A DNA stretch of 64,000 nucleotides from the NCBI RefSeq assembly GCF_000403395.2, contig NZ_KE159668.1, forward strand, positions 246,280 through 310,279, written 5' to 3'. This stretch comes from Anaerotruncus sp. G3(2012) (GTDB lineage Bacteria > Bacillota > Clostridia > Oscillospirales > Ruminococcaceae). A program made the position numbers and the translations under genes. Positions 17,322 to 30,370 of the stretch are shown piece after piece. The notes under the pieces are model-generated. The model searched no databases. It was not told the DNA's origin and was given only the letters and a program-made list of their open reading frames with translations. Within the stretch, counting starts at the first letter, position 1. Each line of letters starts with the position of its first letter.

Positions 17322-17350
17322 TTGAAAGACCGCGAATTTTGTTGTATAAT
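17322..17350 (+). promoter_or_regulatory. Sigma-A promoter for the cysteine desulfurase gene
   Basis: TTGAAA, 17 bp, then TATAAT. The leader of about 85 nt has a small AACCGC/GCGGTT hairpin near 17408-17425. Confidence 0.75.
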
Positions 17351-17441: not shown

Positions 17442-18572
17442 ATGGAAGCCTATCTTGACAACGCCGCGACTACCCGGGTCTGTGATGCGGCGGCAGACGC
17501 TGCCCTCCGGATGATGCGGGAGTGCTATGGGAACCCGTCCTCCCTGCATCGGATGGGTGCCAGTTCCGCGCGGGAGCTGGCGCAGGCGCGGGAAGCTGCC
17601 GCCGGGCTGCTGGGGTGTCAGGGCGAATGTATCTGTTTCACCTCGGGCGGCAGTGAAGCCAACAATCTGGCGGTTTTCGGCGCGGCAAACGCCAAAATCC
17701 GCCGCGGCAGAAAGCTGGTCACCACGGCCGCGGAGCATTCTTCGGTCTCCGCAGCGATGAAGCGTCTGGAGGAGACCGGCTGGACGGTGGCCTGGGTGAG
17801 GCCCGGCCCATCGGGTGGGATTGACCCTCAGGCGGTCGCTGATGCGGTTGATGGGGAAACCACCCTGGTCAGCATGATGATGGTCAATAACGAGACCGGC
17901 GCGCGATTCCCGGTCGAGCGGGCCGCGCAGCTCATCCACGCGAAAAACCCCCAGACGCTGATCCACTGCGATGGGGTACAGGCGTTCGGAAAATTGCCGC
18001 TCAAGGTTGCCCGGACCGAAATTGACCTGATGAGCGTCAGCGGGCACAAAATCTGTGCGCCGAAGGGCAGTGGCGCGCTCTACATCCGGCGGGGGGTGCG
18101 GATTCTGCCGCTGATCTATGGCGGCGGACAGGAACGCGGCCTGCGTTCCGGCACCGAAAGCCTGCCCATGATCGCCGCATTCGGCGCAGCATGCGGTCAG
18201 CTCGCCGGGCAGGTGCAGAAAAATCTCGCACATGCGCAGGAGCTGAAAGCCCATCTGCTCAAGCGGGTGGAACAGATTCCCGGGGTACAGGTCAACTCGC
18301 CGGACGATGGTTCCCCCTATATCATCAACCTTTCGGTCCCCGGCTACCGCTCGGAAACCATGCTCCATTTTCTCGAAAGCCGGGGTGTCTATGTTTCGAG
18401 CGGTTCTGCCTGCTCAAAAGGGGCGTCCAGCCCGGTGCTGGCCGCAATGGGGCTGCCCCCCGCAGTGATCGACAGCGCCCTGCGGGTCAGCCTGATCTAC
18501 GACACCACCCCCGGTCAGATCGACCGTTTTGCCGATGCACTCGAAGAGGGGATCGCTTCGGTGGCGCATTAG
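17442..18572 (+). CDS. Cysteine desulfurase (NifS/IscS-type)
   Basis: 376 residues. The PLP lysine is K203 in SVSGHK and the sulfur-carrying cysteine is C324 in SSGSACSKG; EHSSV and DNAATT motifs are also in place. It takes sulfur from cysteine and passes it on as persulfide. Because thiI is the next gene (324 bp on), the likely acceptor is ThiI for 4-thiouridine in tRNA, as with the dedicated NifS-like partner in Bacillus; this is inference from position. An Fe-S cluster role cannot be excluded. Confidence 0.95.
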   Translation: MEAYLDNAATTRVCDAAADAALRMMRECYGNPSSLHRMGASSARELAQAREAAAGLLGCQGECICFTSGGSEANNLAVFGAANAKIRRGRKLVTTAAEHSSVSAAMKRLEETGWTVAWVRPGPSGGIDPQAVADAVDGETTLVSMMMVNNETGARFPVERAAQLIHAKNPQTLIHCDGVQAFGKLPLKVARTEIDLMSVSGHKICAPKGSGALYIRRGVRILPLIYGGGQERGLRSGTESLPMIAAFGAACGQLAGQVQKNLAHAQELKAHLLKRVEQIPGVQVNSPDDGSPYIINLSVPGYRSETMLHFLESRGVYVSSGSACSKGASSPVLAAMGLPPAVIDSALRVSLIYDTTPGQIDRFADALEEGIASVAH

Positions 18573-18896: not shown

Positions 18897-20063
18897 ATGA
18901 AAGAACTGATCCTGCTCAAATGCGGCGAGCTGGCCCTGAAAGGGCTGAACCGCCGGATGTTCGAGGATGCACTGATGCGCAACTGCCGCAGACGGCTCGA
19001 GCCGCTCGGGAAATTTAAAATCCGTTCCTCCCAGTCGACCATCTATGTCGAGCCGCAGGAGGAGGGGGTTGATCTGGACGAGGCGGTCGACCGGCTGCTC
19101 AAGGTGTTCGGTGTGGCAGCGCTCACCCGATCGGCGGTGGTCGAAAAGTCGTTTGACGCGATCAGGCAGTCTGCGCCCGCCTACCTCGCGGACGATCTCG
19201 GGCGTGCCCGGACCTTCAAAGTCGAAGCCAAACGGTCGGACAAATCGTTCCCAATGAAATCCCCCGAACTCTGCAACGAACTCGGCGGGGTTCTGCTCGA
19301 GGCGTTCCCGCATCTGGCGGTGGACGTGCACCAGCCGGATGTGACTGTCTATGTCGAAATCCGGGAGGCGGGCGCCTACCTGCATGCAGACCAGCTCCAC
19401 GGTGCGGGCGGCCTGCCGGTGGGCACCTCGGGGAGGGCCTGCCTGCTGATCTCAGGCGGGATCGACAGCCCGGTCGCCGGGTATATGATGGCCAAGCGCG
19501 GCCTGCAGGTGATGGCGGTGCATTTTGTCAGCCCGCCCTATACCAGCGAACACGCGCTCGAGAAGGTCAAGACCCTCTGCAAAAAGCTGACCCCCTACTG
19601 TGGGCGGGTCCGGCTGGCGGTCGTTCCGTTCACAAGGATGCAGGAGGCGATCCGGGATAACTGCCCCGAAGAGCTGTTTACCGTCATCATGCGCCGGTAT
19701 ATGATGAAGCTGGCTGAGCGGGTCGCGCAGGAGAACGAATGCGGTGCGCTGATTACCGGCGAGAGCGTGGCGCAGGTCGCAAGCCAGACGATTCAGGCGA
19801 TCGCCTGCACCGACGTGGCCTGCCAGATGCCGGTGCTCCGTCCGGTGATCGGGATGGACAAGGATGAGATCGTCAAAATCGCCTACCGGATCGATACGTT
19901 TGAAACCTCGATCCTCCCGTATGAGGACTGCTGCACCGTTTTTACCCCGCGGCATCCCAGAACCAAGCCGCGCCTGGAGATGGTGCTGAAAGCGGAGCAG
20001 GCGATGGACGAACAGCTTCTGGAAGAGGCGTTCGCGGGGATCGAATATTGCAACATTGGATGA
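18897..20063 (+). CDS. thiI: tRNA 4-thiouridine synthase ThiI (no rhodanese domain)
   Basis: 388 residues: N-terminal ferredoxin-like/THUMP region (~1-165), then the PP-loop ATP-binding motif SGGIDSP (~185) and the C-terminal EDCCTVFTPRHPRTKP block. It adenylates and thiolates U8 of tRNA and can supply sulfur for thiazole. The C-terminal rhodanese domain of the E. coli form is absent, as is usual in Firmicutes, so it depends on a dedicated cysteine desulfurase, most likely the upstream gene. A GAAAGGG site precedes the ATG. Confidence 0.95.
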   Translation: MKELILLKCGELALKGLNRRMFEDALMRNCRRRLEPLGKFKIRSSQSTIYVEPQEEGVDLDEAVDRLLKVFGVAALTRSAVVEKSFDAIRQSAPAYLADDLGRARTFKVEAKRSDKSFPMKSPELCNELGGVLLEAFPHLAVDVHQPDVTVYVEIREAGAYLHADQLHGAGGLPVGTSGRACLLISGGIDSPVAGYMMAKRGLQVMAVHFVSPPYTSEHALEKVKTLCKKLTPYCGRVRLAVVPFTRMQEAIRDNCPEELFTVIMRRYMMKLAERVAQENECGALITGESVAQVASQTIQAIACTDVACQMPVLRPVIGMDKDEIVKIAYRIDTFETSILPYEDCCTVFTPRHPRTKPRLEMVLKAEQAMDEQLLEEAFAGIEYCNIG

Positions 20064-20115
20064 AGCTCCCGGCAGGACAGAACAGATGGGGAGCCGAAAC
20101 AGGGAGGCTGACGAT

Positions 20116-23100
20116 TTGATAGCGGAAATCATCGGTGTAGGACAGGCGCTGCTCGACGGGCAGACGCTGGATACGGTTGCAGACCTGATTGCGGAGCAGC
20201 TGGAGGGCTGCGGCGTACAGACCGAAGATGTCTGTGCGGCTGGCAGCGATCCGGTCAGATTGCGCGGCGCGATCGGTCGGGCGATCGGACGCAGCGACAT
20301 CGTGGTATTGGTTGGGGGGCTTGGGATGACCCCTGCCGACATCTCAAAAGAAACGGTCTGCGCAGGGCTTGGGCGGCGTCTGGTGCTGCATGAGGAGAGC
20401 CAGCGCAGAATCCGGGAAGCCTACCTGCACGCGGGGCGGCAGATGCCCCAGCAGGCGGTCAAGCTGGCGATGATGCCCGAACAGTCGATCGTCTTTCCGG
20501 GCGTCAAGGGGGTTACCCCCGGATGCGCGATCTCGGCCGGGCGGCAGTTCCTTCTGATGATCCCCGATAACCCGGACGAGTTCCTGCCGATGTTCCACAA
20601 GAGCATTGTGCCGTATCTGTCCAGATTTTCCCCGGCGGCGGTTTTTACCAGGACCCTCAGCCTGTTCGGGATCGAAGAAGCCGAGCTGCGCACCCTGCTT
20701 GAGGGATACTTGGATTCCGAAAATCCAAAGGTCGAGCTGTTCCCGTCCAATGGCGAATTTCTGGTGCGGATCACCGCGAACGCCGAAAACAAGGAGGAGG
20801 CTGCCGAACTGCTGAACCCGGTGCTGTTTGAAATCCGGGCAGTTCTCGGAGGCAGTGTCTACGGGGTGGATGTGCAGGGCGGGCTGCCCGCAGCCACCGC
20901 TGCGCTGCTGCAGGAACGCGGGATACAGGTGAATGTGGGGGAATCGGGCACCAATGGCCTGCTCGCTGACCTGCTCACCGGGCAGTCGGACGGTCGGGTG
21001 GTCGCCTACAGCGTGTCGGCCTATGCGAGCCATGTCAAAAAAGACGCCCTCGGCATCCCGGACAAGGTGCTGAAAAGATACAGCCCGGTCAGCGAGCAGA
21101 TCGCGGTACATATGGCGCATGGGGCATTGCAGCAGGAGAACGCCGCGTTTGGGGTGGCGGTCACCTGCAATACCGCCCTGCGCGGCGAGGACCCCAAAAA
21201 GAACGGCCTGCTTTATGCGGCGGTCTGCGACGGCAAACAGGTCTGGGTGCGGCGGGTCCTCCTGCCGCAGGATAGTTCGGGGGATTACGTGCGTCACATG
21301 GCCGCGATGCATACCCTCAACCTGCTGCGGCTCTGTGCGGGGACGTCCGGCTGTCCGGGCGGCATCCCGGTTGATGAAGCGCTTGATCCCAAATTTGCCC
21401 TGCCGAAACAGGAAAATGCATTTGTCTCCGCCCGGAAATGGGAGAGCGGCAGCAAACCCGCACCAGTGCTTCCATCCCAAAACCGCGCATGGTATGCGGC
21501 AGTCTTCCCGGTGAAAGGGGATACTCCCGGCGCGGTGTTCCGCAAGCTGCTTCTTCTGGCCGCACTGGTGGTCTTTCTCGGATCGGCCGCGTTCCTGATC
21601 CACTACTACCTGTCCGGCAGGTCCAACGCCGCCCTCTATGACGAGCTGAGACAGGTCTATCTCACCGGGGCGGACGATCAGCAGGCGGAAGAGGCGGTCG
21701 CCCGCGGGAAGTTCCCGGCAGGGTACCAGAGCAAATTCCTGAACCTTTACCAAACCAACGAGGACCTGGTGGGGTGGCTTTCGGTGGGGAAAAACCTGTT
21801 CAGCTATCCGGTGGTGCAGGCGGACGACAACGAACGCTATCTCAATACAAATTTCCAAAACAAGTCCAGCCGGTACGGGACTCCGATGCTGGATGCGGGC
21901 AACAGCCTCGCGTCCGAATCGGACAACTACCTGATCTATGGGCACAACATGTCCGACGGGCAGATGTTCGCCGGATTGACCCGTTATAAACCTGCGGAAG
22001 GCGGGCTGGACTTCCTGAATGCTAACCCGACCATCTCGTTTGCGGATGTTTATGAGGACAACGAATATGAGATTGTGTCGGTGTTTATCACCAATGTGAC
22101 CGACAAATATGGCGACGTGTTCTACTACAACGACTATCAGGACCTGAGCGACCCTGCCCGGTTTATCGAATTTACCGAAGAGGTCACCGCCCGGTCGTTC
22201 TACACTTCGGACATTGCAATCCAGCCGGGCGACCGGTTCCTCACTCTTTCAACCTGCTCCTATGAGTACGGGCCAAAATCCCGGGATGCGGATGTGAGGA
22301 CAGTTGTTGTTGCCCGCCGCTTGCGGGATGGGGAATCCCCGTCCGCCTCCTATGCGCTGAATCCCTCCCCGCGGATGCCCTCCGGCTTCACCGACCATCA
22401 GGGCGGGCAGTCGGCCCCGCAGGATGCGGACAGCATCCCTTCTTCCGGCAATGCGGCGGATGTGATCGACGCACTTGCGCCGGTCGTGGACCCCGATTCG
22501 CTCGACGACCACGAATACAGCGCCTATGCGGCTTACGAGTCGATCAAGCAGGCGCTGGTTGATGCGGAGCAGGCTGCGAAAGCTACCCGGCAGGCCGCAC
22601 AGAAGGCCGCGTCCGCAGCGGATGAAGCTTCCGCACAGAGTGAAGCCGAAAAGGCGGCACTGGAGATGAAAAAGGCCGAGGACGCCTATTGGCGGATCGC
22701 GGACCATGTCGGGGTGCTCAACGACCTTCGGGAGGAGCGTTCGACCGAATACATCGAAAGTATCTGCGAGCGTGCGCAGGCCGCACTTGTGCAGGCGGAG
22801 GCATACCGCGACGCCAGCAGCCAGAGCGCGGCACAGGCCGGGCAGACCGGCGGTGGCGCACCGGTCGCCTCGATGGAGGTGGCCAGTTCCGCGCCATCAG
22901 CGGGCAGTTCTGCACCGGCACCGAGTTCCACGCCTGCGCCGAGCAGTTCCGCACCGGCCCTGTCCAGTTCTGCGCCAGCGCCGGGCAGCTCTGTACCGGC
23001 ACCATCCAGTTCCGCGCCTGCGCCGAGCAGCTCTGTACCGGTATCGTCCAGTTCCGCGCCAGCGCCGAGCAGCTCCGCACCGGCACCATCCAGTTCCGCG

Positions 23101-24477
23101 CCCGCGCCGAGCAGCTCCGCACCGGCACCATCCAGTTCTACGCCTGCACCGAGCAGCTCCAGGCCGGTACCATCCAGCTCTGTCCCCGTAAAACCGGTGG
23201 TCAGCAGCTCGAGCCGGGAGGATGTCGCTGCCCGCAACAAGGAGGCGCTGGAAAAGACCGAGGAATATCAGCAGACCCTCGACGATGTGGTTTCGGACGC
23301 GCGGGAGGTGCGGGAGATCGCGCGGGATGCCTCGGACGAAGCCTATGACGCCAAGACCGCCAAAGCGGTGCGTACCGCTGCCGACCGGATCGAGGATGCA
23401 CTCGAAGAGATCCGCTCCCTCTGCGGGGAGGTGGAGGACACCTCAGACGGATTGAAAACCCTTTATCAGCGGACCAACCTCCAGCAGACCCGGGAGGCTG
23501 TTCAGGATGCGGCGGATATCCTGGAGGTTTTGGAGGAGTACGAATCCGAGGTCGAGGAACTTTGGGTCGACGCGGATAACAAGGCGTACAAGCTGGAAAA
23601 TGAGCCATCCAGTTCCGCGTCCTCCTCTTCCAGCGGTTCTTCTTCCGGCAGTTCTTCGAAAGGGGACGAGGACGATGAGGACGATGAGGACGATGAGGAC
23701 GGCCGCCCGAACAGTGCCGGGGAACTGACCATCTCGATCAGCGGGAAAAAGACCACCGGCTCCGCCTCCGAGATCGTCCAGCAGGTGGTGATGGCGGAAA
23801 TGGGCAGCTCGTTCAACGACGAAGCGATCAAGGCGCAGGCGGTCGCCGCATACAGCTATATCCTCCACCAGAACCGGGGCGGGACGATCCCTGCGTTGGG
23901 GGTCAAGACCCCAAACGACCGGATGAAAAAACTGGTGGATTCGGTGATTGGCGAGGCGGTCTATTACAACGGCAGCCTTGCATTTACCCCGTTCTATGCC
24001 ACCAGTGCTGGTATCACCGTCTCTTCGGAGGACACCTGGGGCGGCTCCTATCCATATCTGGTCTCGGTGGACAGCAGTGTTGACGAGCAGGCCGGCGGCT
24101 ACGAACGGACAGTGACTATGAGTACCAGCAAGGTTGCCGAGCGGATCAAAAAGATATTGAAAGAGGACATCTACGATTACAGCGACGACCCCGAAGACTG
24201 GATCGAGATTTTGAGCTACAGCAAGGGCGGCAAGTATGTCCGCAAGGTGCGGATCGGCAAAGACGAGGTCAGCGGCCGGTACATGCGCGAGAATGTGTTT
24301 GGCCTGCGTTCGGCAGCGTTCGAAGTGGTCTGCGACGGCGATTCCTTCCAGTTTACCACCTATGGCTATGGACATGGGGTTGGAATGAGCCAGACCGGCG
24401 CGAATCTTTACGCTGCAAAAGGCTGGGATTACGTTGACATCCTGACTCACTATTACCCTGGGACTACCGTAAAGTAA
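20116..24477 (+). CDS. CinA-like / class B sortase / SpoIID fusion protein (1453 residues)
   Basis: The chosen start is TTG at 20116, 8 bp after AGGGAGG; a longer frame opens at 20056. Residues ~1-255 resemble the CinA N-terminal region (VGGLGMTPADISKE). Residues ~258-420 resemble the CinA amidase domain: S277 and K308 of the Ser-Lys pair are kept, but the usual TGxAGP loop is altered. One membrane helix lies at ~478-500. Outside it is a class B sortase with H610, C714 (LSTC) and R728. Then come an Ala-rich helical region (~799-908), a Ser/Pro/Ala repeat (~924-1033), a second helical region, an acidic tract, and a SpoIID domain (~1203-1453) with E1228 and GHGVGMSQTGA. The protein should be inner-membrane bound, CinA part inside, sortase and peptidoglycan-cleaving part outside. 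Substrates are unknown. Confidence 0.9.
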   Translation: MIAEIIGVGQALLDGQTLDTVADLIAEQLEGCGVQTEDVCAAGSDPVRLRGAIGRAIGRSDIVVLVGGLGMTPADISKETVCAGLGRRLVLHEESQRRIREAYLHAGRQMPQQAVKLAMMPEQSIVFPGVKGVTPGCAISAGRQFLLMIPDNPDEFLPMFHKSIVPYLSRFSPAAVFTRTLSLFGIEEAELRTLLEGYLDSENPKVELFPSNGEFLVRITANAENKEEAAELLNPVLFEIRAVLGGSVYGVDVQGGLPAATAALLQERGIQVNVGESGTNGLLADLLTGQSDGRVVAYSVSAYASHVKKDALGIPDKVLKRYSPVSEQIAVHMAHGALQQENAAFGVAVTCNTALRGEDPKKNGLLYAAVCDGKQVWVRRVLLPQDSSGDYVRHMAAMHTLNLLRLCAGTSGCPGGIPVDEALDPKFALPKQENAFVSARKWESGSKPAPVLPSQNRAWYAAVFPVKGDTPGAVFRKLLLLAALVVFLGSAAFLIHYYLSGRSNAALYDELRQVYLTGADDQQAEEAVARGKFPAGYQSKFLNLYQTNEDLVGWLSVGKNLFSYPVVQADDNERYLNTNFQNKSSRYGTPMLDAGNSLASESDNYLIYGHNMSDGQMFAGLTRYKPAEGGLDFLNANPTISFADVYEDNEYEIVSVFITNVTDKYGDVFYYNDYQDLSDPARFIEFTEEVTARSFYTSDIAIQPGDRFLTLSTCSYEYGPKSRDADVRTVVVARRLRDGESPSASYALNPSPRMPSGFTDHQGGQSAPQDADSIPSSGNAADVIDALAPVVDPDSLDDHEYSAYAAYESIKQALVDAEQAAKATRQAAQKAASAADEASAQSEAEKAALEMKKAEDAYWRIADHVGVLNDLREERSTEYIESICERAQAALVQAEAYRDASSQSAAQAGQTGGGAPVASMEVASSAPSAGSSAPAPSSTPAPSSSAPALSSSAPAPGSSVPAPSSSAPAPSSSVPVSSSSAPAPSSSAPAPSSSAPAPSSSAPAPSSSTPAPSSSRPVPSSSVPVKPVVSSSSREDVAARNKEALEKTEEYQQTLDDVVSDAREVREIARDASDEAYDAKTAKAVRTAADRIEDALEEIRSLCGEVEDTSDGLKTLYQRTNLQQTREAVQDAADILEVLEEYESEVEELWVDADNKAYKLENEPSSSASSSSSGSSSGSSSKGDEDDEDDEDDEDGRPNSAGELTISISGKKTTGSASEIVQQVVMAEMGSSFNDEAIKAQAVAAYSYILHQNRGGTIPALGVKTPNDRMKKLVDSVIGEAVYYNGSLAFTPFYATSAGITVSSEDTWGGSYPYLVSVDSSVDEQAGGYERTVTMSTSKVAERIKKILKEDIYDYSDDPEDWIEILSYSKGGKYVRKVRIGKDEVSGRYMRENVFGLRSAAFEVVCDGDSFQFTTYGYGHGVGMSQTGANLYAAKGWDYVDILTHYYPGTTVK
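22885..23215 (+). repeat. In-gene Ser/Pro/Ala-coding tandem repeat
   Basis: About 16 imperfect 21-bp units encode variants of APAPSSS. Alternate units differ at third positions in a regular way (GCGCCGAGCAGC against GCACCATCCAGT), giving a 42-bp higher-order period. It forms a flexible wall-spanning stalk between the sortase and SpoIID parts, and is a likely site of length variation between strains. Confidence 0.85.
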
Positions 24478-24484
24478 ACAGATG

Positions 24485-24520
24485 GCCGCCGGTGCACATA
24501 TTGTGCACCGGCGGCAGTGT
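24485..24520. terminator. Bidirectional terminator
   Basis: A perfect 13-bp stem, GCCGCCGGTGCAC with its inverse, around ATATT, followed by AGTGTTTTG. It separates the fusion gene (plus) from the recombinase gene (minus). Confidence 0.85.
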
Positions 24521-24597: not shown

Positions 24598-25224
24598 TTA
24601 AAGCGTACAGAGTTCTTTTTCCAGATCGAAGGTATCTTCGTTCTTCCAACGATAGAGCGTCCGACGGCTGACCCCGAGCTGTGTGCTTGCCTGGCTCGCG
24701 GAAATCCGGTTTTCACACCATGCCAGGAATACCGGGTGATCCCGCAGCGCCTGCTTTCCGGTGGGCCTGCCGAACTTCACCCCGCGCATCTGGGCGGCGG
24801 CAATCCCTTCGTGCTGGCGGCGCCGGATGTTCTGCCGCTCGTTTTCCGCCACAAACGAGAGAAGCTGCAATACAAGATCGGAGATCAGTGTACCGAGCAG
24901 GTCGCGGTTTTGCCGGGTATCGAGCAGCGGCATGTCGAGCACCACAATATCTACCTCAAGGTCATGGGTGATCCTGCGCCATTGTTCCAGAATCTCGCTG
25001 TAGTTACGGCCTAGGCGGTCGATGCTGCACACGATCAGCAGGTCCCCCTTTTTGAGCCGGCACATCAGCTGGTGATAGGCCGGACGGTTGAAATCCCGGC
25101 CGCTTTGTTTGTCAATAAAGATGTTTTGTGGGAGAATCTGGAACCGCCCGTTCATCGAGATCATCTGTCGGTCCTCATACTGGCTTTTGGATGAGACGCG
25201 GGCATAGCCGTAGGTATTGTTCAT
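24598..25224 (-). CDS. Serine recombinase (resolvase/invertase type)
   Basis: 208 residues from the ATG at 25224, which follows AAAGGATGG. The catalytic domain starts YGYARVSS (S11 as nucleophile) and has the arginine-rich region with CSIDRLGRNYSEI and the E helix ENERQNIRRRQHEGI. A C-terminal helix-turn-helix ends the protein (ASQASTQLGVSRRTLYRW). It cuts and rejoins DNA at short crossover sites. No partner transposase or obvious res/inversion site is next to it, so it is an orphan, perhaps a remnant of a mobile element or a domesticated invertase. Confidence 0.9.
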   Translation of the reverse strand: MNNTYGYARVSSKSQYEDRQMISMNGRFQILPQNIFIDKQSGRDFNRPAYHQLMCRLKKGDLLIVCSIDRLGRNYSEILEQWRRITHDLEVDIVVLDMPLLDTRQNRDLLGTLISDLVLQLLSFVAENERQNIRRRQHEGIAAAQMRGVKFGRPTGKQALRDHPVFLAWCENRISASQASTQLGVSRRTLYRWKNEDTFDLEKELCTL

Positions 25225-25394
25225 CGTTGTTCCATCCTTTCTCAATACGCAGCCGGCCCTGCGCATCCGCGCAGCCGGCTTTATGTCTACGGCTGTTCAC
25301 TTGCGCAGCGGGCTTTTTACCGCCTGCGAAAGCAGCCGCCAGCCTCCATTCTGTGTATCAAAATTCCAAAGGAAAAAATGGAATTCACGAAAAA

Positions 25395-28646: not shown

Positions 28647-29339
28647 ATGAACTATTCTCATGAAGTGGAGAGAATGTGCGTTCTCGCCAAAGGACCCAAG
28701 CATGGTCCCGCCCCCATTCCCGAAGAGGGGAAATGGGTAAAAGCCTACCAGATTCCGGACATCTCCGGCCTGACCCACGGTGTGGGCTGGTGCGCACCCC
28801 AGCAGGGCTGCTGCAAGCTGACCCTGAACGTCAAGGAGGGCATTATCGAAGAAGCGCTGGTGGAAACCCTCGGCTGCTCGGGCATGACCCATTCGGCGGC
28901 GATGGCGGGCGAAATCCTCGTCGGCAAAACCCTGCTTGAGGCGCTCAATACCGACCTGGTCTGCGACGCGATCAATGTTGCGATGCGCGAGCTGTTCCTC
29001 CAGATCGTCTACGGACGTACCCAGACCGCCTTCTCCGAAAACGGCCTGCCGATCGGCGCAGGGCTTGAGGACCTCGGAAAGGGCCTGCGTTCGCAGGTTG
29101 GGACCATCTTCTCGACCAATGCAAAGGGTGTGCGCTATCTCGAGATGGCGGAAGGATATATCCTCTCGGTTGCGGTAGACGGCAACGGCGAAGCGATCGG
29201 TTACAAGTTCGTCAAGGTTGGCAAGATGCTCGAGGACATCCGCCACGGCAAAGACCCCAAAGAGGCATTCGAGAGCAATATCGGAACCTATGGCAGATAC
29301 GAGAACGCGCCGAAATATATCGACCCGCGTGAAGAATAA
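28647..29339 (+). CDS. NifU N-terminal-like protein (Fe-S scaffold family)
   Basis: 230 residues. The middle part resembles the N-terminal IscU/NifU scaffold fold: Cys-containing stretches WCAPQQGCC (~49-57), LGCSGM (~76) and the later LVCDAINVAMREL (~112) occur at about the spacing of the three cluster ligands. The protein is longer than IscU (about 125-150), with extra N- and C-terminal segments. It is probably an Fe-S cluster carrier or binder serving its partner gene, which follows after 20 bp. Some databases group it with the GGGtGRT protein. Exact role unknown. Confidence 0.8.
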   Translation: MNYSHEVERMCVLAKGPKHGPAPIPEEGKWVKAYQIPDISGLTHGVGWCAPQQGCCKLTLNVKEGIIEEALVETLGCSGMTHSAAMAGEILVGKTLLEALNTDLVCDAINVAMRELFLQIVYGRTQTAFSENGLPIGAGLEDLGKGLRSQVGTIFSTNAKGVRYLEMAEGYILSVAVDGNGEAIGYKFVKVGKMLEDIRHGKDPKEAFESNIGTYGRYENAPKYIDPREE

Positions 29340-29359
29340 GAGGAGAGGGAGGCAACACA

Positions 29360-30370
29360 ATGGTTAAGTTTGAAGGACAGGAAAGAAGAATGCCCAAGAT
29401 TGAGGCCTGCCTCAAGGAATATGGCATCTCTTCCCTCGAGGATGCAAAAGAGCTTTGCCTTTCGAAAGGCATTGATGTAGAAAAAATCGTCAAAGGTGTA
29501 CAGCCGATCGCGTTTGAAAATGCGGTCTGGGCCTACACCCTCGGCACTGCGGTAGCGATCAAGAAAGGCACTTCCAAGGCAGCGGACGCTTCTGAAGCAA
29601 TCGGGATCGGCCTGCAGGCGTTCTGCGTGCCCGGATCGGTTGCGGAGCAGCGTTCGGTCGGCCTCGGCCACGGCAACCTCGGCGCAATGCTGCTGCGCGA
29701 CGAAACCAAATGCTTCTGCTTCCTCGCGGGGCATGAGTCGTTCGCGGCCGCGGAAGGCGCAATCGGCATCGCCCGCAATGCGAACAAGGCCCGCAAAGAG
29801 CCGCTGCGGGTAATCCTGAACGGGCTCGGCAAGGATGCGGCCTATATCATCTCCCGCATCAACGGGTTCACCTATGTCGAAACCGAGTACGATTTCTCGA
29901 CCGGTGAGCTGAAAGAGGTCCGCACCATCCCCTATTCGGATGGTGAGCGTTCCAAGGTCCGCGTCTACGGCGCAAACGATGTGCTCGAGGGCGTTGCGAT
30001 CATGAAGCATGAGAAGGTGGATGTTTCGATCACCGGCAACTCGACCAACCCGACCCGGTTCCAGCATCTGGTGGCCGGCACCTATAAGAAATGGGCGTTT
30101 GAGAACGATGTGAAATACTTCTCGGTCGCATCGGGCGGCGGCACCGGACGTACCCTGCATCCGGACAACGTCGCAGCCGGCCCGGCTTCCTACGGCCTGA
30201 CTGACTCGATGGGCAGAATGCATGGGGATGCACAGTTTGCAGGTTCGTCCTCTGTCCCGGCGCACGTCGAGATGATGGGCCTGATCGGTATGGGCAACAA
30301 CCCGATGGTCGGCGCAACTGTCGCATGTGCGGTCGCGGTCGAAGAAGCCGCGAAAGCTGGCAAGTTCTGA
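29360..30370 (+). CDS. GGGtGRT family protein
   Basis: 336 residues. It carries the family-defining sequence SGGGTGRTLHPDN at about residue 255-268, and no domain I can link to a known reaction. A glycine-rich loop of this sort could bind a nucleotide or phosphate, but that is guesswork. It is co-transcribed with the NifU-like protein, both with strong ribosome sites and a strong promoter, and the operon ends with a strong terminator. Codon use suggests high expression. Confidence 0.85.
   Translation: MVKFEGQERRMPKIEACLKEYGISSLEDAKELCLSKGIDVEKIVKGVQPIAFENAVWAYTLGTAVAIKKGTSKAADASEAIGIGLQAFCVPGSVAEQRSVGLGHGNLGAMLLRDETKCFCFLAGHESFAAAEGAIGIARNANKARKEPLRVILNGLGKDAAYIISRINGFTYVETEYDFSTGELKEVRTIPYSDGERSKVRVYGANDVLEGVAIMKHEKVDVSITGNSTNPTRFQHLVAGTYKKWAFENDVKYFSVASGGGTGRTLHPDNVAAGPASYGLTDSMGRMHGDAQFAGSSSVPAHVEMMGLIGMGNNPMVGATVACAVAVEEAAKAGKF

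Follow-up and report, generated by a model that had tools for sequence, protein, structure and literature searches.

In a 64,000-nucleotide stretch of contig NZ_KE159668.1 of Anaerotruncus sp. G3(2012), hereafter the window, a single gene encodes a 1453-residue protein in which a CinA-like half, a membrane helix, a class B sortase (SrtB), a long stalk and a SpoIID/LytB domain follow one another in this order. This architecture, and its origin through the fusion of neighbouring genes, are in our judgement practically certain. Class B sortases attach proteins to peptidoglycan, and sortases and glycan-cutting enzymes are usually studied separately.

Domain architecture and conservation of the fused protein

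The gene lies on the plus strand and forms one uninterrupted frame that opens with TTG 20116 and closes with the stop codon at 24477, as described in an earlier note made from the sequence alone. TTG 20116 is favoured over a longer start at TTG 20056, because AGGGAGG lies 9-15 bases upstream of it and the first start codon of the sister species is also a TTG at the same place. The parts of the gene are given below; each Pfam match is above the gathering score.

20101..20107 (+): AGGGAGG, likely ribosome-binding site, 8-base gap before TTG 20116 (by eye)
20116..24477 (+): fused gene, 1453 residues (open frame, domain profiles)
20125..20622 (+): MoCF/COG1058 domain, residues 4-169, with the equivalents of Glu-12 and Asp-45 replaced by Ala and Ser (Pfam MoCF_biosynth, E = 2.5e-20; residue alignment)
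20647..20865 (+): CinA KH domain, residues 178-250 (Pfam CinA_KH, E = 6.8e-21)
20890..21330 (+): PncC/CinA amidase-like domain, residues 259-405, without the TGxAGP loop and the phosphate-binding Arg (Pfam CinA, E = 2.7e-20; residue alignment)
21523..21612 (+): single membrane helix, residues 470-499 (hydropathy; helix 469-515 in the structure model, which is numbered from residue 3)
21541..22380 (+): class B sortase region, residues 476-755, its start overlapping the membrane helix, with H610, C714 and R728 (Pfam Sortase 563-735, E = 3e-9; NCBIfam, alignment, fold)
22381..23739 (+): stalk, residues 756-1208, rich in Ser, Ala, Glu, Asp and Pro, with the acidic run DEDDEDDEDDED from residue 1184 (composition)
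22883..23177 (+): 42-base tandem repeat, 7.1 copies, encoding the Ser/Pro/Ala part of the stalk (repeat search)
23740..24474 (+): SpoIID/LytB domain, residues 1209-1453, with catalytic Glu E1228 (Pfam SpoIID 1219-1262, E = 4.3e-8; NCBIfam, alignment, structure model)

The three domains named in the earlier note were all recovered by these profiles, its sortase residues H610, C714 and R728 and SpoIID residue E1228 are in place, and hydropathy bears out its single membrane helix. The NCBIfam class B sortase model TIGR03064 matches residues 475-720 with 144.2 bits (E = 3.8e-42), just under its cut-off of 153.75, and the SpoIID_LytB model TIGR02669 matches residues 1222-1452 with 136.1 bits (E = 2e-39), above its cut-off of 83.3. 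A structure model of the CinA-helix-SrtB part (predicted local distance difference test score, pLDDT, 86.8; predicted template modelling score 0.48, so that the mutual placement of the domains is uncertain) contains a low-confidence linker at model residues 431-454. Its best Foldseek matches in the PDB are CinA of T. thermophilus and S. mutans, and class B sortases. The SpoIID domain was modelled with a pLDDT of 96.0, and its best matches are the SpoIID proteins of C. difficile (5i1t, with a TM-score of 0.89 normalised by query length) and B. anthracis. A single signal-anchor helix precedes the sortase catalytic domain, by hydropathy and in the model, and would place the sortase and SpoIID outside the cell and the CinA-like half inside.

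A 375-residue query spanning the linker, helix and sortase matched a long frame in 11/11 genomes of the genus, its own included. Domains in these and other relatives were searched with profiles made from the window's own domains and their matches. CinA and SrtB are fused in all 11, and SpoIID is attached in nine, being absent from the fused genes L035 and L040. The stalk differs among genus members through insertions and deletions. An assembly artefact or frameshift joining separate genes can be ruled out with near certainty: the same frame and gene order stand in independent assemblies across the 11 genus genomes, one of them a single 3.56-Mb contig (L033, genome G001). The nearest relative (L009/L039), a separate metagenome-assembled genome (MAG) labelled Anaerotruncus sp., has an identical gene order and is 92% identical to the window across the CinA-SrtB part.

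In total, 41 fused proteins were collected (21 CinA-SrtB-SpoIID, 18 CinA-SrtB and 2 CinA-SpoIID), and all but one of them possess a single membrane helix, placed after CinA and before the following domain. CinA is only partial in L072, L073, L085, L086, L089, L103 and L139, and L098 is cut at a contig end. The sortase His, Cys and Arg are kept in 35 of 39 fused sortases, including that of the window. Among 41 SpoIID domains, 23 of them fused, 17 encoded on their own next to a sortase and one being L003, a separate SpoIID of the window's genome, 40 retain the catalytic Glu; the exception, L156, is a partial match only. The 17 standalone domains are what is left of 19 rows after removal of L003, which is of the sporulation type, and of the short partial match L075_751. 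The stalk consists of Ser/Pro/Ala repeats in the window and of Big_2 immunoglobulin-like domains in L078, L084 and, weakly, L087.

The standalone SpoIID proteins beside a sortase have an N-terminal helix of their own in 16/17 cases; the fused SpoIID has lost this helix and relies on that of the sortase. Their domain ends 0-6 residues before the stop in 16/17 and 15 residues before it in L082, and a loose sorting pattern occurs inside two of the 17 (L088, L155). The idea that the fused SpoIID is a substrate of its own sortase was rejected, the window protein having no sorting motif by the loose pattern. A role in sporulation is also unlikely. The sporulation SpoIID equivalog TIGR02870 (cut-off 234.75 bits) scores the fused domain at 166.2 bits and L003 at 250.4 bits, and a non-sporulation role of the fused domain is likely because the separate L003 passes the cut-off as the genome's sporulation-type SpoIID and the fused domain does not.

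Gene cluster and origin of the fusion

The fused gene stands in a conserved cluster whose source order is NifS > ThiI > CinA > SrtB > SpoIID. Its surroundings in the window are as follows.

17322..17350 (+): promoter-like TTGAAA-17-TATAAT ahead of NifS (by consensus match alone; 3 such sites where 1.7 are expected)
17442..18572 (+): first gene of the conserved cluster, a NifS-like cysteine desulfurase (name by similarity)
18897..20063 (+): ThiI, first upstream neighbour and marker of the conserved cluster (similarity)
24485..24515 (+): 14-pair stem right after the stop of the fused gene, terminator-like on both strands (9 sites of this kind where 6.8 are expected)

In the family, 62 of 80 genomes gave a match at E <= 1e-20, and the loci of 38 genomes, mostly the best-matching ones, were inspected: 25 have a fused gene and 14 the triple fusion. 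All five cluster genes are separate, and in cluster order, at L077. CinA and SrtB are joined, with SpoIID as the next gene, at L082, L083, L087, L090, L092 and L098, and the triple fusion occurs at 12 loci outside the genus. At L093, L096, L107, L154, L155 and L156 a short PncC-only gene is followed by one to four sortases and then by SpoIID. Among 53 loci that hold ThiI, chosen by sortase similarity, a CinA gene or domain lies between ThiI and SrtB in all except L142.

At the level of the order, which the label Anaerotruncus suggests is Oscillospirales, 26 of 197 genomes match at E <= 1e-35. Of the 20 loci opened, 12 have the ThiI cluster, seven have the sortase only, and L141 is a CinA-SrtB fusion with no ThiI in reach; CinA and SrtB are joined in three of the 20 (L139, with a PncC-only part, L141 and L144). 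Twenty loci chosen in other orders of the class include four with the NifS-ThiI-CinA triad and none with a sortase within ~4 kb. Across the class, 167 of 196 genomes have a CinA match, and among the matches listed only the window's own genome and G458 have CinA frames longer than 600 residues. The 777-residue frame of G458 was rejected as a fusion and is a plain 420-residue CinA. We infer that the triad is older, that the sortase was added in this order, and that SpoIID was added mainly in this family.

Several genomes carry the parts on more than one gene. In G008 and G003 the cluster gene is a CinA-SrtB fusion without SpoIID (L040 and L035), and elsewhere each has a gene with a decayed CinA, one membrane helix and SpoIID, without a sortase (L157 and L158; the stalk of L157 is Ala-rich). 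In G058 the cluster gene L095 combines SpoIID with a sortase that lacks its His and Cys, and a second gene, L076, has a complete sortase triad and no SpoIID. G032 (L073/L078) and G048 (L085/L084) each have two copies, only one of which includes SpoIID, and the sortase residues are intact in both. In such split genomes, when one chain loses an outer activity, both activities stay in the genome.

A second class B sortase lies directly downstream of the fused gene, at a distance of ~170-350 bases, in seven of the 11 genus genomes (L033-L038 and L040). In the window this spot is occupied by a gene at 24598-25266 (-), directly after the fused gene, that resembles by eye a resolvase-type serine recombinase, and a mobile insertion at this point is possible. 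The best counterpart of the second sortase in the window's genome is L007, on contig C2, with 48-67% identity over the main segments; the same contig carries the sporulation-type SpoIID L003. Further downstream, at 28647-30370, stands a gene pair that presumably, from its motif, encodes NifU-like/TSCPD and GGGtGRT-type proteins.

Four consecutive class B sortase genes stand between the PncC-only gene and SpoIID at L155:4591-9426. In an unfused cluster of a Clostridia MAG (L010:5797-6870), the second sortase is followed by a 357-residue protein in which a COG1058-like domain has decayed and a membrane helix can be seen by eye at the C-terminus, that is, a membrane CinA-like pseudoenzyme without fusion. 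At L180, one of the loci from other orders, a SpoIID-domain gene lies ~1.8 kb upstream of CinA and no sortase is found there.

State of the CinA-like half

The CinA-like half was compared at the residues named in the portion of the T. thermophilus CinA (TtCinA) study available to us (PMC4246079): Glu-12, Asp-45, Asp-76, Glu-156 and Glu-187 of COG1058, and Tyr-296, Lys-301, Thr-340 and Arg-377 of PncC. The window keeps the equivalents of three of the five COG1058 residues (Asp-76, Glu-156, Glu-187) and of three of the four PncC residues (Tyr-296, Lys-301, Thr-340), with Arg-377 replaced by Gly. Its motifs read GGLGMTPAD for GGLGPTxDD, PDNP for PGPP and TCNTAL for TGIAGP. The alignment agrees with the earlier note that Ser277 and Lys308 are kept and the TGxAGP loop is lost; Lys308 shares a column with the proposed general base Lys-301. 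The other genus members have as few of these active-site residues as the window or fewer: across the 11 genus rows the equivalent of Glu-12 is lost in 11, that of Asp-45 in 10 and that of Asp-76 in nine, and Glu-156 is kept in 11 and Lys-301 in 10.

All nine residues are present in 10/10 unfused full-length CinAs of the set, and also in the fusions L082, L083, L090, L109, L141 and L144, so that an enzymatic role is possible in some of the relatives' fusions. The NCBIfam CinA equivalog PRK00549 (cut-off 379 bits) scores the window at 261.8 and the triple fusion L109 at 499.7. A separate intact CinA is encoded elsewhere in the window's genome. The CinA half of the window protein has, very probably, neither nicotinamide mononucleotide (NMN) deamidase nor ADP-ribose hydrolase activity, and in this genus it is probably a pseudoenzyme. 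The proposal in the earlier note that the inward domain could sense metabolism is not supported by this comparison, nor is a working nucleotide-cleaving half, since both active sites lose residues, the genus is alike or worse, and an intact CinA exists separately; the remainder of that interpretation, three real domains on one tether with a fitting topology and the sortase and SpoIID residues kept, stands.

Ratios of nonsynonymous to synonymous substitution rates (dN/dS) were obtained as point estimates. Between the window and its sister, dN/dS is 0.063 for the CinA half (MoCF 0.078, KH 0.093, PncC 0.029), 0.079 for SrtB, 0.042 for SpoIID and 0.028 for ThiI, and the CinA half of this lineage is under purifying selection despite the loss of residues from both active sites. 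Between the window and L042 the values are 0.265 for CinA, 0.178 for SrtB and 0.222 for SpoIID.

Decay of the cluster PncC goes together with a second PncC-bearing gene in the genome. With the standalone CinA of the window's genome as query over 40 selected genomes, and with states assigned by hand, a second copy (PncC domain present) was found in 24/26 genomes with a decayed cluster PncC and in 0/14 with an intact one (Fisher p = 5e-9). The 24 include a 235-residue frame (G032) and a PncC-only gene (G071), and the two without a second copy are G042 and G036. Among the 14 intact genomes, G023 has an extra 273-residue gene without a PncC part, and G043 has a decayed COG1058 with an intact PncC; G079 lacks a ThiI row and was entered manually. 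The number of independent pairs is one on well-supported branches and four on all branches, and because of these few independent comparisons the link is a pattern and not proven causal. On the simplest reading, the presence of a second copy allowed the cluster CinA to degenerate into a scaffold.

Proposed function, rival explanations and known systems

The explanation that we favour, with some reserve, is that a single helix holds an outward-facing anchoring and glycan-cutting protein, whose CinA part serves inside the cell as a non-catalytic scaffold. The protein would be tethered by the sortase's own signal-anchor helix. On its outer side it would present the class B sortase, and a flexible stalk would carry a SpoIID-type enzyme able to bind or cleave glycan strands; together these would form a vegetative unit for anchoring surface proteins. 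The SpoIID arm would bind and trim denuded glycan at the growing or dividing wall, thereby bringing the sortase to the sites of acceptor peptidoglycan synthesis, and the trimming would open room for the attached proteins. In the cytosol, the CinA half would pair the chains. Judged from the conserved catalytic residues, the sortase and SpoIID are quite probably both active; that they act jointly at the wall has a little less than an even chance, and the CinA half as a dimer scaffold is a tentative suggestion, TtCinA being described as a dimer in the part of that study available (PMC4246079). A more elaborate form seems unlikely: a vegetative wall machine in which a chemistry-free CinA-fold dimer pairs at least two outward arms and couples protein attachment to local wall opening, and in which the CinA halves of split-paralogue genomes form heterodimers that unite a CinA-SrtB with a CinA-SpoIID chain.

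Several observations weigh against the favoured explanation. A shared chain is not essential, because G003 and G008 hold the domains on separate paralogues, and the sortase and SpoIID may act on separate chains. Catalytic residues are lost in four of the 39 fused sortases (L094, L095, L104 and L109), and since three of these four carry SpoIID, the SpoIID arm can be retained without a working sortase. Sorting-signal models pointed to no convincing substrate. The SrtB-target model TIGR03063 has no match over its cut-off in the window's genome, and is silent in all 14 control genomes too, so that it is weak; the LPXTG-anchor model PF00746 has one match over cut-off there and matches in two of the 14 controls, and short sorting motifs may escape both models. 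Of four close pairs, three show weaker constraint on the CinA half than on the outer domains, with dN/dS of 0.112 for CinA, 0.026 for SrtB and 0.072 for SpoIID in L033/L034, of 0.219 for CinA, 0.089 for SrtB and 0.202 for ThiI in L035/L040, and of 0.260 for CinA and 0.113 for SpoIID in L157/L158. The window's CinA half may still bind a ligand, because it retains three of five and three of four of the tested residues. Of the ten cluster loci opened in other families, only L138 has SpoIID beside SrtB, and two or three of the remaining ones stop at or near a contig end. Finally, 23 of the 50 inner branches of the ThiI tree are unresolved, and the fusions may have arisen by chance within a neighbourhood that is itself stable.

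With respect to the sortases that lost residues, the triad is wholly or partly replaced in L094:3172-5847, L095, L104 and L109, and in L109 the sortase triad is damaged, yet the CinA half keeps all tested residues. By eye, no obvious substrate gene was seen among the window frames at 15-30 kb, where no further search was made.

The most serious rival holds that the fusion is an accident of neighbourhood: stop codons were lost and the parts keep separate jobs, the sortase anchoring its own substrates and the SpoIID domain trimming the wall, with the CinA half as decay-tolerant ballast. The fusion state is indeed labile, with at least six changes for the CinA-SrtB state and at least seven for the SrtB-SpoIID state on the ThiI tree (which omits L009 and L159, on the same contigs as L039 and L095, as well as L002 and L003; 21 of 74 loci lack ThiI in the stretch taken and are outside it). 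The triad occurs without a sortase in other orders, parts drop out independently of each other, and the CinA half is the least constrained domain in most close pairs. This account is nevertheless fairly unlikely in view of the purifying selection on the CinA half of the window and its sister after the loss of active-site residues, the retention of a CinA-like half in L157 and L158 though SrtB is gone, and the CinA-SrtB fusion kept throughout the genus. If instead the SpoIID domain were a mere wall-binding arm that places the sortase and cuts no glycan, the missing counterpart of the C. difficile zinc-ligand segment would be accounted for: the stretch with H134, C140, H145 and C146 falls in an unaligned gap, where the window has ~7 residues and no Cys or His. 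According to the accessible part of the C. difficile study (PMC6221140), SpoIID there cuts glycan after the amidase SpoIIP and is inactive alone without it, and the window protein contains no amidase. The same part describes the zinc turn motif as found only in C. difficile SpoIID, and the catalytic Glu is kept in nearly all domains, which makes a binding arm without cutting improbable.

An inward half that senses a nucleotide (ADP-ribose or NMN) and controls how active the outer enzymes are would fit the CinA fold retained in the model, the six tested residues that the window still has, among which Glu-156 and Lys-301 persist in the genus, and the complete CinA of six relatives' fusions. The losses of Glu-12, Asp-45 and Asp-76 across the genus rows, together with the absence of much of CinA from L072, L073, L085, L086 and L089, make a sensor very unlikely.

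The fused protein and its relatives are of interest in three respects. A sortase and a glycan cutter occur as one protein or as cluster neighbours across many genera of one bacterial family. The series from five separate genes through the triple fusion to split paralogues is a natural experiment, by which the link between anchoring and glycan cutting becomes testable. The CinA half is also an example of how a metabolic enzyme, where a second genomic copy exists, has apparently been pared down to a scaffold tethered to the membrane.

No description of a CinA-sortase-SpoIID fusion or of a ThiI-CinA-sortase operon was found in the open literature searched, in keeping with the earlier note, whose author knew of none that joins these activities; most subscription journals lie outside this search, so that the evidence is weak. 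The closest relatives are known for the parts. CinA, an NMN deamidase/ADP-ribose pyrophosphatase (T. thermophilus 4ct8, S. mutans 6mr3), shares the MoCF-KH-PncC order over its full length and is the best structural match of the N-terminal half, which differs in having lost residues of both active sites and in being followed by a membrane helix that ties it to the outer enzymes. SrtB (B. anthracis 1rz2/2oqw, S. aureus 1qwz, C. difficile 4ux7) shares the catalytic His, Cys and Arg and the fold, whereas the window sortase is preceded by the CinA half and followed by the stalk and SpoIID. Known SpoIID/LytB proteins (C. difficile 5i1t/5txu, B. anthracis 4rwr, Waddlia SpoIID) share the whole domain and the catalytic Glu; the window domain differs in standing on a sortase stalk, in falling under the sporulation equivalog cut-off and in lacking the C. 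difficile zinc-ligand segment. The Chlamydiales homologue is described, in the part of PMC6635528 available, as septal, peptidoglycan-binding and glycan-cutting. A loose precedent comes from C. acetobutylicum, where, in the portion of PMC4877998 consulted, a SpoIID-like protein with several LPXTG motifs is a predicted sortase substrate. A sortase is tied to a SpoIID-like protein there as it is here; in C. acetobutylicum the two are separate proteins, whereas here they are cluster neighbours or fused in one chain, and no sorting motif was detected in the protein of the window.

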